Source of the DNA: Halobaculum sp. MBLA0147
Lineage (GTDB): Archaea; Halobacteriota; Halobacteria; Halobacteriales; Haloferacaceae
DNA length: 64,000 bases
Assembly: GCF_041361345.1 (NCBI RefSeq)
Contig: NZ_JBGKAD010000001.1
Location: 2,232,001-2,296,000, forward strand
Direction: 5' to 3'
Of this stretch, positions 9,695 to 62,396 are shown piece by piece. A program made the position numbers and the translations under genes. Position 1 is the first letter of the stretch. Every line of letters begins with the position of its first letter. Under the pieces are notes generated by a model. That model did no database searches. It saw only the letters and a list, made by a program, of their open reading frames with translations, and was not told the origin of the DNA.

Positions 9695-10010
9695 CAGAGG
9701 CACACACGGCACGGTGGAACATAAGCCCCGTGGCTCAGTCGGACCCTCACCCCAGTGAAACGTCCGTTCAGTGGTGGCTGAGAAGCGGCCGATTTCGGCC
9801 GTTGAGTGGTCTCTACGCCGCACTCTCGGCAGTGTCGACCGTGACAACCGAGTGGTCACGCCGCACGAGTCGAGAGTCGTGGTCGACGAGCCCACGAACG
9901 GGTCGTCGTCCCGCGGTCTCGCGCGGTCCGTCACCCATCGACGGGTCGGCGTGACCACCGACCGAACGCCGTCGGGGCCCGTGTACACCGGATCACACCT
10001 CGGTGTCCCC
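9695..10010. other. Intergenic region without a recognisable gene
   Basis: This stretch lies between the divergent helicase and M20 peptidase genes, upstream of a 38-bp tandem array. Short open frames here lack codon bias, known motifs or convincing starts. I see no tRNA, hairpin-plus-T terminator or IS end in it. Confidence 0.5.
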
Positions 10011-10220
10011 CCGGCGAGACACACACCGGACCAGACCGTGACACCCTCCCGGCGAGACACACACCGGACCAGACCGTGACACCCTCCCGGCGAGACACAC
10101 ACCGGACCAGACCCCGACGTCCTCCCGGCGGGACACACACCGGAACAGACCGTGACACCCTCCCGGCGAGACACACACCGGACCACACCCCGACGTCCTC
10201 CCGGCGGGACACACGCACCG
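10011..10220. repeat. 38-bp tandem repeat (about 5.5 copies) upstream of the M20 peptidase gene
   Basis: The block GGCGAGACACACACCGGACC recurs at 10013, 10051, 10089, 10127, 10165 and 10203, an exact 38-bp period. The second half of the unit alternates between a GTGACACCCTCCC and a CCCGACGTCCTCCC version. The period is not a multiple of three, so the array is not coding. It ends some 20 bp before the probable promoter (GATTAG, about 10238) of the M20 gene. No unique spacers separate the copies, so it is not a CRISPR. Confidence 0.92.
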
Positions 10221-40885: not shown

Positions 40886-41530
40886 GCGACCGCCACCGCA
40901 CCGCTCCGCGCCACACCGCTGTCGCTCTCCACCGCACCGCACCACTACCGCACCGCTCCGCCCCGCCACCGAACCTCCTCGCCCCGCACCGCCATCGCCC
41001 CGCACCGCACCACTACCGCACCGCTCCGCCCCGCCACCGAACCTCCTCGCCCCGCACCGCCATCGCCCCGCACCGCACCACTACCGCACCGCTCCGCCCC
41101 GCCACCGAACCTCCTCGCCCCGCACCGCCATCGCCCCGCACCGCACCACTACCGCACCGCTCCGCCCCGCCACCGAACCTCCTCGCCCCGCACCGCCATC
41201 GCCCCGCACCGCACCACGACCGCCCCGCAACCGCACCGCCCCATCCCTACACCGCCCCAGCCCCGCACCGCCATCGCCCCGCCCCGCACCACGACCGCCC
41301 CGCAACCGCACCGCCCCATCCCTACACCGCCCCAGCCCCGCACCGCCATCGCCCCGCCCCGCACCACGACCGCCCCGCAACCGCACCGCCCCATCCCTAC
41401 ACCGCCCCAGCCCCGCACCGCCATCGCCCCGCCCCGCACCACGACCGCCCCGCAACCGCACCGCCCCATCCCTACACCGCCCCAGCTCCGCACCGCCCCA
41501 GCCCCGCACCGCAACCGCCTCCATACGGAG
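40886..41530. repeat. Expanded CACCGC tail of copy C: 68-bp (x4) and 75-bp (x4) tandem arrays
   Basis: After copy C the CACCGC-rich tail forms two arrays. The word GAACCTCCTC recurs at 40971, 41039, 41107 and 41175 (68-bp period). The word CCATCCCTAC recurs at 41241, 41316, 41391 and 41466 (75-bp period). Copies within each array are nearly identical, so expansion is recent. Long open frames across it encode only Pro/Ala/Arg/His low complexity and are not genes. Confidence 0.92.
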
Positions 41531-47861: not shown

Positions 47862-48404
47862 TCACAACACACGCCGGTCGCCGTCCGCACTGGAGACGGC
47901 GAGTTCCCCCGCCGCCGGCTCGAACTTCAGCGAGCGCCCGTTACTCCCACCGGTGTCGCTCCCCTCGATGGGAACGTTCCGCTCGTCGAGTGCCCGCTCG
48001 GCCGCCGCGACGTTCTGCTCGCCGACCGAGGCGCTCTCCGTCTCCAAGTCGAGCATCGAACTGGCACCCGCCAGTTTCGCCCGGATCGAGCGCCGCGAGG
48101 CACCCGCACGGTCGAGTGCCGCGAGCATCTCGTCGATCCCCTCGACGACGAACTTCTCCGGCGGTCCGGGGTGGTCCGCGGACTCGGGGAGCATCGCGTG
48201 GAGCAGCCCACCGATCCCGGTCGTCGGGTCGTACAGCGCCACGCCGAGACACGACCCCAACCCACTGGTGACCAACACCACGTCACGGTCCGTGACGTGG
48301 GCGTCGGAGACGCCGACCTTCAGGCGCTCCTTCCCGTCGTCGTGTAGCCCGCTCCCCGACGCCGTGTTCGTGCGACCGCCGACCCCCGAGTCGGAACTCC
48401 CCAT
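47862..48404 (-). CDS. cheD: Chemoreceptor glutamine deamidase CheD
   Basis: The 180-residue protein has the CheD core: DVVLVTSGLGSCLGVALYD with the catalytic Cys in GSCLG, and GGLLHAMLPESAD with the catalytic His. CheD deamidates glutamines in chemotaxis receptors and interacts with CheC, tuning adaptation. It is the last gene of the leftward cheY-cheC-cheD unit, six bases after cheC. N-terminal 25 residues are a poorly conserved Gly/Ser-rich extension. Confidence 0.92.
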   Translation of the reverse strand: MGSSDSGVGGRTNTASGSGLHDDGKERLKVGVSDAHVTDRDVVLVTSGLGSCLGVALYDPTTGIGGLLHAMLPESADHPGPPEKFVVEGIDEMLAALDRAGASRRSIRAKLAGASSMLDLETESASVGEQNVAAAERALDERNVPIEGSDTGGSNGRSLKFEPAAGELAVSSADGDRRVL

Positions 48405-48410
48405 GTGGTG

Positions 48411-49616
48411 TCAGAGTGCTCCGTCTGCGCCGACCGACGCCTCGGTGTCGATGTTGTCCAGTGCCGCCGCGAGTTCGTGTTGGTCCGGCAACGCGTAGAT
48501 GTCACACCGCACGTCTCCGTCCGGCGTCCGGATCGTCGAGTCGATGATGAACGCGTGTTCCTGCGTCCGGCCCAACCGACTCACCAGCGGGTCCATCACG
48601 GCCGACCCCATGTCGTGGATGAACTGGGGTGGCGTGTGCTCGATACTCGTCTGGAGCACGTTCGCCCACCCGTCGATGAACCCGCTCGTCATGATGTTGC
48701 CCAACTCACGGAGCGCGCCACGTTCCATCTCGCCGATACCGGGCTCCGTCTCCGTCGGGATCATCCCCTGGGCGACCTCCTCGGCGGAGGCCTCGTCGAA
48801 CAGGATCGCGAGGTAGCCGCTCGGGTTCCCGTGGAGTTCGAAGATCGTCCCCGCGACGGTGTCGTCGCCCACCTCCGAGGGGACGTCCTGGATCGGGACG
48901 AACCGGAGCCGCGACACCTCCACGTCCGTCTCCGTCCCGGTCATCATGGTGATGTTGTCGGCGGCGCTCGTCGCCCCCTGTTTCGTCATCTGGTTGAACT
49001 CCGGCAGCTTCTCGACGGGAATCGCCGGGGCGCTGCCGCCGCCGGTCCGCTGGAGCATCTCCGTGAACCCGGCGTACTCCGGCAGCATGTAGATCGTGAA
49101 CTCCAACTCGTCGGACAACGAGCGGATCTTCGACTCGAACATGAACACGCCCGAGCGATCCGTGTCCAGGGCACCGTCCGGGAGGATGTCCGTCCCGCTC
49201 GCGCGGACGTACGACGGCGGCGTCATGTCGATCCCGACACCGAGGTGGTCCGCCCACCCGTCGATGAACCCACTCGTCATGATGTTGCCGGCCTCCTGAA
49301 CCCCGCTGCGAGCGAACGCCTCGTCTTCGATCGAGCCGTCGCCGGGCATCAGCTTGTCCAACAACACTTCGGCGGCGTCCGTCTCGAAAGCCATCACGGT
49401 CTGGCCCGCGATTCCACCCTCCAAGCCGACCTCGACGCCGACGAACTCGCGGCCGGTGAAGGTGTCACGCAGGTCGCCCGCCGCCATCAGTGTCACGTCC
49501 GTCACGTCGACGTACACGTCCGTCCCGGTGAGCGTGCCCAGCGAGTCGGCGGCGGTGCTGGCTCCCTCGCTGGCGAGCCGGCTGAACGTCTCCAGCGACT
49601 GGATGTCGACGTACAT
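48411..49616 (-). CDS. cheC: CheC with two CheC domains in one chain
   Basis: The 401-residue protein is a tandem fusion of two CheC/FliY-like domains. Each has the phosphatase-type motif: EAGNIMTSGFIDGW (about 108-121) and ELGNIMTSGFIDGW (about 305-318), with Glu and Asn as catalytic residues. Bacterial CheC has a single domain of about 210 residues. CheC dephosphorylates CheY-P and binds CheD. The ATG at 49616 follows the cheY stop by three bases, so the genes are co-translated. Confidence 0.92.
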   Translation of the reverse strand: MYVDIQSLETFSRLASEGASTAADSLGTLTGTDVYVDVTDVTLMAAGDLRDTFTGREFVGVEVGLEGGIAGQTVMAFETDAAEVLLDKLMPGDGSIEDEAFARSGVQEAGNIMTSGFIDGWADHLGVGIDMTPPSYVRASGTDILPDGALDTDRSGVFMFESKIRSLSDELEFTIYMLPEYAGFTEMLQRTGGGSAPAIPVEKLPEFNQMTKQGATSAADNITMMTGTETDVEVSRLRFVPIQDVPSEVGDDTVAGTIFELHGNPSGYLAILFDEASAEEVAQGMIPTETEPGIGEMERGALRELGNIMTSGFIDGWANVLQTSIEHTPPQFIHDMGSAVMDPLVSRLGRTQEHAFIIDSTIRTPDGDVRCDIYALPDQHELAAALDNIDTEASVGADGAL

Positions 49617-49619
49617 TCG

Positions 49620-49982
49620 CTACGCTGGGACCGCGTCGTTGATCGCCTCGAGCACGTTCGGCTTCTGGAACGGCTTCGTGATGTACCCCTCTGCACCCGC
49701 CTTGATCGCCTCCTTCATCTTCTCCTCCTGTCCGACGGACGTACACATGATGATCGTCGCGTCGGGGTCCTCCGACATGATCTCCTCCGTCGCCTCGATC
49801 CCGTTGCGGATCGGCATCACGATGTCCATCATCACCAGGTCCGGATCGTCGTCCTGGTACATGTCGACCGCCTCGACACCGTTCTCGGCCTCCCCCACGA
49901 TCTCGAACTCTTCTTCGAGAATCTCCCGCAGGAGGTTCCGCATGAACTCCGAGTCGTCGGCAATGAGTACCCGAGTCGCCAT
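49620..49982 (-). CDS. cheY: Chemotaxis response regulator CheY
   Basis: The 120-residue receiver domain has the acidic pocket (LIADDSEF), phospho-acceptor Asp in LVMMDIVMPIRNGIEA, the Thr/Ser switch in TIIMCTSVGQ and Lys in YITKPFQKP. It receives phosphate from CheA and signals to the archaellum motor. The ATG at 49982 has a TTTTTAC box (minus strand, about 50006-50013). It is first gene of the cheY-cheC-cheD unit. Confidence 0.95.
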   Translation of the reverse strand: MATRVLIADDSEFMRNLLREILEEEFEIVGEAENGVEAVDMYQDDDPDLVMMDIVMPIRNGIEATEEIMSEDPDATIIMCTSVGQEEKMKEAIKAGAEGYITKPFQKPNVLEAINDAVPA

Positions 49983-50071: not shown

Positions 50072-51391
50072 TCACTCGAAGGTGATCGACCCCTCGTCTC
50101 TGGCCGCCTGCAGCAGGTCGCCGATGGAGTCGTCCGGCGACAGGTCGTGTTCGACGGCCACGTCCTTGATCAGGCTCGGCGGGAGCTGGACCGACACGTC
50201 CGAGCGAGCCAACAACAGCCCGAGGGCCTTCGACGGTGGGGTGTCCTCGGCGGCGTTGTGGAGGAACCACGTCACCAGCGTCTCGAACGTCGTCGGGAGG
50301 TCGTCCGAGACCATCCGGTGGCGGTTCGTCTCCCCGTCGATCGACAGCGTGGCGTCGAACCCGTGTGCGAACTCGTTGTCCGCCAGCGACTGCGCGAGGA
50401 ACTCCCGCACCTCCGCGGCGTCGACGCCGCTCGGCGTCCCGCCGGGCGCGCCGCGCGCCACGTCGGGGTCTGACGCCGTCCGGTCGCGTGCCGGCGGGTC
50501 GCGCGCCCCCGCACGACCAGCCTGTCCACGGAGGTCCGGGACGCCGTCGGGTCCACCCGCACCGGGACCGCCGCCCGCGCCACCACTCGGCGCGCCGGCA
50601 CCCGTCCTCCCGCCGTTCGCCCCGCCACCGGGAGCACCCCCGGCGCTCTCGCCGGCCGCACCGGACTGTGGCCGGCCGCCCGCACCGCCGGCCGCACCGG
50701 CACCACGACCCTGCGTCGTCCCGCCGTCCGTTCCGTGGTTCGGTGCTCCACCGGACTGCGGTTGGCCGCCGCCACCGCCACCGCGAGGCTGTCGTCCACC
50801 ACCACCCGACTGTGGGGTGTTCCCGCCGGTCTGCTGGTCACCCCGTCTGCCGTTCTGTCGCCCGCCGCCGGACTGCTGGCCGCTACTCCGTCCGCCGGAC
50901 TGCTGGTGACCACCGCCGTTCGGTGGTTGCTGACCCCCTCGACCGCCGGGTGTACCTCCCTGGCCACCGTTCGGTCGTTGTCCGCCGCCCGCGGCGTGAT
51001 CGCCACCGCCGTTCTGTCGTCCGCCACCACCGTGTCCGCCGGGTCGTCGTCGACCGCCGCCAGCGGCTCGCCCGCCATCGCCGTTCTGTCGTTGACCGCC
51101 ACCGCCGTTCTGTCGTTGACCGCCACCGCCGTTCTGTCGCTGACCGCCACCGTTCGGTGCGCCGCCGGACTGCTGGCGGCCACCACTCTGCCCGCCGGAC
51201 TGCTGGTGGCCACCGCCCTGCCCGCCTTCACCCTGGGGAAGCTGCCCGTGGTCGCTCCCGCCGACCCCACGCGGCGGCCCGTCCGCGGAGACGACGTACC
51301 GATCGTCGCCGATCTCGGCGACCCGCTCGTCGTCCGCGATGTCGAACTCGCTGGGGTCCAACACCGGACCGTCCGCGGGGTCGTCGCTCAT
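50072..51391 (-). CDS. Chemotaxis-cluster protein with a long Gly/Gln/Asn-rich low-complexity middle (DUF7500-like)
   Basis: The 439-residue protein has a short conserved N-terminus (LDPSEFDIADDERVAEIGDDRYVVS, about 11-35), about 270 residues of low complexity (repeats such as QRQNGGGG, HQQSGG, PNGG, RGG) and a folded C-terminal domain of about 120 residues (DAAEVREFLAQSLADNEF ... DEGSITFE). The edges match a haloarchaeal family, DUF7500 from memory. Unusually the middle is not acidic; it is rich in Gly, Gln, Asn and Arg, like phase-separating proteins. It lies 89 nt upstream of cheY. A TTTTTAG box precedes the ATG. Function unknown. Confidence 0.82.
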   Translation of the reverse strand: MSDDPADGPVLDPSEFDIADDERVAEIGDDRYVVSADGPPRGVGGSDHGQLPQGEGGQGGGHQQSGGQSGGRQQSGGAPNGGGQRQNGGGGQRQNGGGGQRQNGDGGRAAGGGRRRPGGHGGGGRQNGGGDHAAGGGQRPNGGQGGTPGGRGGQQPPNGGGHQQSGGRSSGQQSGGGRQNGRRGDQQTGGNTPQSGGGGRQPRGGGGGGQPQSGGAPNHGTDGGTTQGRGAGAAGGAGGRPQSGAAGESAGGAPGGGANGGRTGAGAPSGGAGGGPGAGGPDGVPDLRGQAGRAGARDPPARDRTASDPDVARGAPGGTPSGVDAAEVREFLAQSLADNEFAHGFDATLSIDGETNRHRMVSDDLPTTFETLVTWFLHNAAEDTPPSKALGLLLARSDVSVQLPPSLIKDVAVEHDLSPDDSIGDLLQAARDEGSITFE

Positions 51392-55327: not shown

Positions 55328-56746
55328 ATGGCAGGCGAGCACACAGGGTGTCCACGGAACGGGTGGCCGGTGACGGACGGGGGTGTCGCCGACGAGACGG
55401 ACGGGGGTGTCGCCGACGAGACGGACGGGGGTGTCGCCGACGAGACGGACGGAGGTGTCGCCGACGAAGCGGACGGAGGTGTCGCCGACGAAGCGGACGG
55501 AGGTGTCGCCGACGAAGCGGACGACGCCGGCGACGAGACGACGACGGACGGAGCCGTGTCGTCGACGACGGCGACCACCGGAGACGGCGCCGTGCCCCCG
55601 GAGACGGCGGGGACGGCGGCAGACGCGACGCGACTCCGTCGGCTCCACGAGGCGACACGCGAGATGGTCGCACGCGAACGGGAGGAGTCGATCGCGGCGG
55701 TGGCCGTCGACGCGGCGGCAGACATCCTCGGGTTCCCGTTCGTCTCCGTCCGCCTCCACGACGAGGAGACGGACCGACTGACACCCGTCGCGGCCGCCGA
55801 GGAGACGGTCGCCCGCGCGGGTGACTGCCGGCCCTACGAGCGTGGCGAGACGATCCAGTGGGAGGCGTTCGACGAGGGAGAGACGCGGCTGTACCCGGAC
55901 GTTCGCGCCGTCGACGACGCGGTCGAGCGCCCCGGCGGCGGGAGTATGCTCGTCGTCCCGCTGGGTGGTCGCGGCGTGTTGACCCTGGGGACACCCGACA
56001 CTGACGGGTTCGACGCGGCGGACGTCGAGACCGCCCGCGTGCTCGGCGCGAACCTCCAGACCGCACTGGAACGTGCCGCGCGCCTCCGCCAGATCGAGCG
56101 CCACGAGGACTCGCTGGCGGCGAAGACGGAACGACTCGACCGCTTCGCCAGCCTCGTCGCCCACGAGTTCCGGAACCCGCTGGCGATCGCCGCGGGCCAC
56201 CTGGAACTGTGTGCGCCACGCGACGACGCCGAGTCGGAACACCTCGGGGCCGCCCGCGACGCCGTCGACCGGATGGATCGACTGACGGAGAGTATCCTCG
56301 ATCTCACGAGTGAACGAGGACTGACGGACGGGACGACGACGGTCTCGGTCGACTACGTCGCCCGCTCGGTCTGGGCGGAGTACGCACCCGACCCGGCGAC
56401 GCTGGAGACCGACGACGACGTGACCGTGGCGGCCGACCGCGACCGACTGCGGACGCTGTTCGAGAACCTCTTCGACAACGCGGTCGGCCTCGGCGGGCCG
56501 CACGTGACGGTGACGGTCCGCGAGCGCGCGGACGGCGCCGGCTTCGTCGTGCGCGACGACGGCCCCGGCTTCGACACCTCGGACCCGACGGAGTTGTTCC
56601 AGTACGGGACGACGGTCGAGAACGCGGGCACTGGACTGGGACTGGCGCTCGTCCGCGACATCGCGGAGGCACACGACTGGGCGGTGGACGTGTCGAGTCC
56701 GCCGACGGGTGGCGCGACGTTCGTGTTCGACACGGACCCGTCGTGA
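55328..56746 (+). CDS. GAF-domain sensor histidine kinase
   Basis: The 472-residue soluble kinase has an N-terminal repeat of DGGVADET/DGGVADEA (six units, about 17-64), a GAF domain (about 105-255, with GETIQWEAFDEGETRLY and GVLTLGTPDTDGF), HisKA with FASLVAHEFRNPLAIA (phospho-His), and HATPase with LFENLFDNAVGLG, RDDGPGFD and GTGLGLALV. GAF and kinase parts are clearly paralogous to 17477-19228, but this protein lacks the PAS domain. No response regulator is near. The signal is unknown. Confidence 0.9.
   Translation: MAGEHTGCPRNGWPVTDGGVADETDGGVADETDGGVADETDGGVADEADGGVADEADGGVADEADDAGDETTTDGAVSSTTATTGDGAVPPETAGTAADATRLRRLHEATREMVAREREESIAAVAVDAAADILGFPFVSVRLHDEETDRLTPVAAAEETVARAGDCRPYERGETIQWEAFDEGETRLYPDVRAVDDAVERPGGGSMLVVPLGGRGVLTLGTPDTDGFDAADVETARVLGANLQTALERAARLRQIERHEDSLAAKTERLDRFASLVAHEFRNPLAIAAGHLELCAPRDDAESEHLGAARDAVDRMDRLTESILDLTSERGLTDGTTTVSVDYVARSVWAEYAPDPATLETDDDVTVAADRDRLRTLFENLFDNAVGLGGPHVTVTVRERADGAGFVVRDDGPGFDTSDPTELFQYGTTVENAGTGLGLALVRDIAEAHDWAVDVSSPPTGGATFVFDTDPS
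55376..55519 (+). repeat. 24-bp tandem repeat (six copies) in the histidine kinase coding region
   Basis: Units start at 55376, 55400, 55424, 55448, 55472 and 55496. Each encodes DGGVADE plus T or A. The 24-bp period keeps the frame, so copy number can vary without breaking the protein. Confidence 0.93.
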
Positions 56747-62126: not shown

Positions 62127-62180
62127 CCGTCGCGCCGGAGCCACCACGCACTGCCACTCGGTAGGCGCTCCCGAGTCTCC

Positions 62181-62396
62181 GCCGACGTACTACCCTCCAC
62201 ACCCCGCCGACGCACCGCTCTCCACACCCCGCCGGCGCACCGCTCTCACACCCTGCCGACGCACCGCTCTCCACACCCTGCCGACGCACCGCTCTCCACA
62301 CCCCGCCGGCGCACCGTCCTCCACACCCCGCCGACGCACCGCTCTCCACACCCCGCCGGCGCACCGCCCTCCACACCCCGCCGACGCACTACTCTC
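62181..62396. repeat. 25-bp tandem repeat, nine copies, upstream of aconitase
   Basis: The word GCCG(A/G)CGCACCGCTC recurs at 62181, 62206, 62231, 62255, 62280, 62305, 62330, 62355 and 62380, spaced 25 bp except once 24. Copies alternate irregularly between GACG and GGCG. It ends about 140 bp before the aconitase TATA box. No unique spacers are present. The gap 62397-62539 has no gene. Confidence 0.93.

Follow-up and report, generated by a model that had tools for sequence, protein, structure and literature searches.

A DUF7500 protein encoded beside cheY in Halobaculum sp. MBLA0147: a candidate accessory protein of the haloarchaeal archaellum with a lineage-specific glycine-rich spacer

The locus and its gene neighbourhood

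The window, by which we mean the whole 64,000-nucleotide stretch of the Halobaculum sp. MBLA0147 genome that was analysed, contained an open reading frame with an ATG start codon encoding a member of the DUF7500 family, followed on the same strand by cheY, cheC and cheD. The frame and both ends of the encoded protein were maintained in three congeneric genomes, and it is therefore a coding sequence rather than a chance frame. No NCBIfam model matched the protein. The features of the locus were as follows:

50072-51391, minus strand: DUF7500 (PF24332) protein, 439 amino acids (open reading frame list and translation; Pfam score 188.8 bits, curated cut-off 27)
51287-51370, minus strand: conserved N-terminal motif, residues 8-35 (GPVLDPSEFDIADDERVAEIGDDRYVVS; conservation in 82 homologues, AF2 hairpin in a short homologue)
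50432-51286, minus strand: Gly/Gln/Arg/Asn-rich spacer, residues 36-320 (composition; differing repeat units in congeners; pLDDT <50 for the spacer of a short homologue)
51072-51152, minus strand: 24-bp DNA tandem repeat in the spacer, encoding QRQNGGGG units (TRF, 3.4 copies, 96% matches)
50438-50464, minus strand: DVARGAPGG motif directly before the C-terminal domain (read from sequences)
50075-50431, minus strand: folded C-terminal domain, residues 321-439 (AF2)
50093-50179, minus strand: last two helices of the C-terminal domain (H85-94 and H103-113 of the model; DSSP), missing from the short form
49620-49982, minus strand: cheY, the next gene downstream (NCBIfam NF041367 CheY_Halo, 208.9 bits)
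48411-49616, minus strand: cheC, of CheC/CheX type, matched in two stretches (Pfam PF04509, PF13690)
47862-48404, minus strand: cheD (Pfam PF03975)

As originally predicted, the gene lies upstream of cheY, with a gap of 89 bp after its stop codon. The only che genes within the window were cheY-cheC-cheD. The others (cheW, cheB, cheA, cheR, a gene for a HEAT-type protein, and cheF) were located at about 1.55 Mb, and arlCE-F-G-H-I-J at about 1.61 Mb, of the same contig; the window thus carries a detached part of the genes for motility. The motility and chemotaxis context extended to homologues, since nearly all of the 63 mapped loci encoding the long form of DUF7500 (see below) adjoined archaellin, arl or che genes. 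The commonest order was archaellin-archaellin-DUF7500-cheY-cheC-(cheD)-arlCE-arlF-arlG-arlH-arlI-arlJ. Neighbouring genes were named from similarity clusters, and representatives of archaellin, arlF, arlH, arlI, arlJ, arlCE, cheW and cheF were confirmed by Pfam/NCBIfam.

In most mapped loci, including those of genomes without CheF, DUF7500 came directly after archaellin genes in the same orientation, in many cases 47-190 bp away. Such an arrangement would equally suit a chaperone- or regulator-like factor serving the expression, delivery or assembly of archaellins rather than the motor or its switching. We consider this unlikely, because families f12 and f17 place DUF7500 away from archaellin genes, as the first gene of a cheW-cheY-cheB-cheA operon, and because in the present genus the gene stays with cheY-cheC-cheD, far from arlCE-J. 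In addition, the C-terminal half of the protein goes with CheF, which would be unexpected for an archaellin factor.

Architecture of the protein

Three parts made up the protein: an N-terminal motif of 28 residues, a spacer of 285 and a folded C-terminal domain of 119. Both conserved DUF7500 ends were present, as two stretches matching profile positions 2-58 and 51-187. Within the N-terminal motif, the R was invariant among 82 homologues, the V was kept in 81 and the P and the D in 79 each. Modelling of a complete short homologue with AF2 predicted a beta-hairpin across V.EI..GRYVVS of this motif (pLDDT 77-79), a spacer with pLDDT <50 and the same C-terminal domain as in the window protein. 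The domain itself, modelled from 74 aligned domains (mean pLDDT 89.4, pTM 0.67), was predicted to fold as alpha-beta-beta followed by four helices, and was preceded by an RGAP-like motif in Halobaculum as well as in each of the four congeners. The C-terminal domain had no significant PDB relative by sequence or by fold, so that its fold hints at no particular partner. A likeness to ArlD/E, suggested by eye from a W..L / L..DH pattern, was rejected: hhalign assigned it a probability of 0.2-0.5%, no better than that of control families.

Composition and variation of the spacer

The original prediction described a frame with a low-complexity, Gly/Gln/Asn/Arg-rich middle between two conserved ends, and frame, ends and composition were all borne out. 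The spacer comprised 115 Gly, 33 Gln, 27 Arg and 11 Asn among its 285 residues (40% Gly, 15% Gln+Asn, net charge +13) and was devoid of Lys, Tyr, Phe and Trp. Among the repeats named in that prediction, QNGG occurred three times and QQSGG four times; RGG was found only twice and had been overstated. The neutral-to-basic character described there held for the spacer, with a pI of about 12, and not for the whole: because both ends are acidic (pI about 4.1), the complete protein has a pI of only 5.2, compared to a median of 4.3 for the window.

Spacer codons (50432-51286) showed a GC3 of 0.69 vs. 0.96 in the C-terminal domain, and runs of at least four G numbered 6, where synonymous resampling led us to expect about 23. 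The low GC3 and the shortage of G runs were also present in two congeners. Avoidance of long G runs or an origin from repeats could explain this bias.

Among 82 distinct long-form homologues, both ends were conserved while the spacer varied between 33 and 341 residues in length (33-100 in most, median 62), in agreement with the proposed length-variable middle. The comparison of orthologues that had been suggested as a check thus gave a divided answer: a disordered middle was kept, its composition was not. The usual spacer was acidic and rich in Ser/Thr/Pro/Ala, and the strongly Gly-rich version was typical of the genus of Halobaculum sp. MBLA0147, in whose four species the Gly-rich spacers measured 341, 290, 263 and 187 residues and were built from different repeat units. 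In genus g12 the spacer was Gln/Ser-rich, with 27-31 Gln+Asn per 80 residues. In a sample of 88 called genes of the present genome, 6 contained a very low-complexity tract, the 5 besides DUF7500 including ArlCE, CheA and a kinase, and many tandem arrays were found within the window. Given this variation by genus, the low-complexity tracts elsewhere in the genome and the tandem arrays of the window, the Gly-rich middle is best explained as a spacer expanded by repeats within this lineage. The spacer is a flexible, lineage-specific link between the conserved ends and not the conserved working part.

Several repetitive tracts were recorded elsewhere. The ArlCE protein of this genome (L157:9869-11236 and upstream) is very rich in Gly over a tract close to the N terminus, and a histidine-kinase-like open reading frame at 55370-56746 of the window carries about six tandem DGGVADE(T/A) copies derived from a 24-bp DNA repeat. 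Outside called genes, tandem arrays were located at 10010-10214 (38-bp units), 40932-41513 (68-75-bp units) and 62179-62396 (25-bp units).

A Gly/Gln/Asn/Arg-rich spacer encoded upstream of cheY had been suggested as the functional, prion-like part of the protein, possibly driving condensation and so organising a pole of the cell or its chemotaxis array, and the Gln+Asn densities reached in genus g12 would agree with this. Prion-like regions typically hold about 30 Gln+Asn in 80 residues; the densest stretch of the present spacer held 20, and it lacked the stickers, whether aromatic residues or dense RGG motifs, on which condensation could draw. The composition is moreover not conserved, since most homologues have short spacers that are acidic or Ser/Thr/Pro/Ala-rich, and tracts of low complexity are also present in other, unrelated proteins of the genome. 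DUF7500 is furthermore found in archaellated genomes without CheW, as described below. We therefore regard condensation as very unlikely to be the function of the family; it may occur within this one genus.

Distribution across genomes

When 295 genomes were drawn from across the phylum, DUF7500 matches were confined to the order Halobacteriales. Among 293 Halobacteriales genomes, raw counts that include shared ancestry showed DUF7500 and ArlD/E together in 212 genomes, DUF7500 alone in 5, ArlD/E alone in 3 and neither in 73, meaning that 212 of the 215 genomes with ArlD/E carried DUF7500. On the same basis, DUF7500 and CheF were both present in 164 genomes, DUF7500 alone in 53, CheF alone in 1 and neither in 75. 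There were 48 carriers with ArlD/E and without CheF, 17 of which also lacked any CheW-domain protein; in these 17 archaellated genomes, DUF7500 usually lay beside archaellin genes. DUF7500 is more closely associated with the archaellum than with chemotaxis. It combines phyletic co-occurrence with archaella and linkage with arl genes, as would be expected of an archaellum component. It was not restricted to genomes with CheA/CheW, as a chemotaxis-array component would be: the 17 archaellated carriers without a CheW-domain protein indicate that it cannot be solely part of the array, and the proposed role as array organiser was not upheld.

Two of the genomes lacking both CheF and CheW, G222 and G153, encoded the long form between archaellins and arl genes, and in G222 the neighbours were confirmed as archaellin, ArlF, ArlH, ArlI and ArlJ. 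A fusion with ArlCE, considered for both on account of a longer open reading frame, was dismissed, as the extra 130-165 C-terminal residues were low in complexity and an ArlCE is encoded separately in G153. Low-complexity C-terminal tails of about 130-165 residues were observed on the DUF7500 proteins at L074:8210-9550 and L082:7902-9161, in two genomes without CheF and CheW, and ended in similar W-containing stretches (SWNWVGSDVD and SWDWVGSDVD). Weak DUF7500 matches were examined in 13 genomes, all but one without CheF; nine of the 13 genes were within about 200 bp of an archaellin gene or arlCE, and all 13 were at most 2.6 kb from an arl gene.

Long and short forms

Most weak matches stopped at positions 142-167 of the 187-position profile and were without the last two helices of the C-terminal domain. 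When carriers were classed accordingly, leaving out two, the long form was found in 163 CheF-positive and 11 CheF-negative carriers, and the short form in 1 CheF-positive carrier, with a marginal CheF match, and 40 CheF-negative ones. The share of the long form was thus 163/164 among CheF-positive vs. 11/51 among CheF-negative carriers. In a tree of the shared core, which had few columns and long branches, all long forms fell on one side of a branch (support 86/60). As the long form is one clade, its link with CheF represents few independent events and not 200. The window protein is a long form: its match reaches profile position 187, it groups with the long forms and it is followed by cheY-cheC-cheD.

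Related DUF7500 copies away from archaellin genes were present in five genomes (G251, G158, G104, G248 and G287). The existence of short, unlinked paralogues indicates that not every member of the family is tied to archaella. A second, short DUF7500-like protein was also observed in the genome under study (L070:8310-8990; G000 contig 1, about 780 kb), away from motility genes and adjoining a 144-amino-acid Gly/Met-rich protein.

Proposed role

The coupling of DUF7500 to archaella in genomes without chemotaxis points to the archaellum as its obligatory partner, and the combination of two conserved ends with an unconstrained spacer points to a two-ended adaptor. We infer, with a probability of about 0.5, that the DUF7500 protein is a soluble, cytoplasmic, haloarchaea-specific accessory protein of the archaellum that works at the motor as a tether or adaptor with two binding ends. 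One partner would be bound by the N-terminal beta-hairpin motif and another by the folded C-terminal domain, and the disordered spacer would set the reach between them. On the archaellum side, the partner would most likely be ArlH or the ArlCE/ArlD ring. We favour the ring, since this is where CheF delivers the output of chemotaxis to the motor (PMC4858521), and the CheF-linked helices at the C terminus agree with the ring side. In the long form, the helix pair may be turned towards CheF, CheY or CheC. The Gly-rich spacer of this genus would be a repeat-expanded version, loosely constrained in length and composition.

A variable tether between conserved ends could also belong to a spatial landmark that helps to position the motor at the pole, with one end bound to it and the other to a polar protein of the MinD or polar cap type. 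That DUF7500 accompanies archaella regardless of chemotaxis would be in line with this, as would the observation that archaella and chemosensory arrays of Haloferax are both polar and are placed independently (PMC6509185). We judge a landmark role quite improbable, and the adaptor or tether at the motor remains our preferred reading.

More broadly, we tentatively suggest that the haloarchaeal archaellum has in DUF7500 a nearly universal component that has gone unrecognised, a two-ended motor adaptor in which the core would serve every archaellum, the helix pair would have been added or kept for CheF output and the spacer would drift. A protein of unassigned function that occurs in 212 of 215 sampled archaellated Halobacteriales is a strong candidate for a missing archaellum part. 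It also represents a natural tether with conserved ends and, between them, a composition that is acidic in some members and basic and Gly-rich in others, so that the importance of linker chemistry can be tested directly. It also holds a caution for the reading of raw sequence, since the most conspicuous stretch, the low-complexity middle, is the least conserved part of the protein.

Comparison with known systems

ArlCE and ArlD (PF04659, PF05377) resemble the DUF7500 protein in being encoded in archaellum clusters, and the ArlCE of this genome likewise has long low-complexity tracts between folded parts; they differ in that no homology to DUF7500 was detectable (hhalign probability <1%). CheF (PF04283) is an archaeal adaptor between chemotaxis proteins and FlaDCE/ArlCDE of the archaellum and is often encoded in the same cluster (PMC4858521). 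The likeness is one of working only: profile comparison gave no similarity between the two, and CheF occurs in a subset of archaellated genomes, whereas DUF7500 occurs in nearly all. A possible analogue of a two-ended tether is ParP of Vibrio, a che-associated protein reported to tether arrays to a polar anchor (PMC5706961); ParP differs in being bacterial and array-bound.

A literature search returned no paper on DUF7500, and a paper on the Halobacterium interactome contained nothing on a candidate locus tag. The search yielded a single mention of HVO_1208 of Haloferax volcanii, merely as a neighbour of csmR and arlA1/arlA2 (PMC13286277). The presence of a DUF7500 protein in H. volcanii was established by a profile-search control, and from synteny we infer that it is HVO_1208. 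With that assignment, HVO_1208 has the same succession of N-terminal motif, spacer and C-terminal domain as the window protein and is likewise encoded beside csmR, archaellin and cheY genes. The spacer of the window protein, Gly-rich and 285 residues long, stands apart from those of most DUF7500 homologues, which have 33-100 residues and are mostly acidic, and the copy in H. volcanii places the family in a genetically tractable archaeon.
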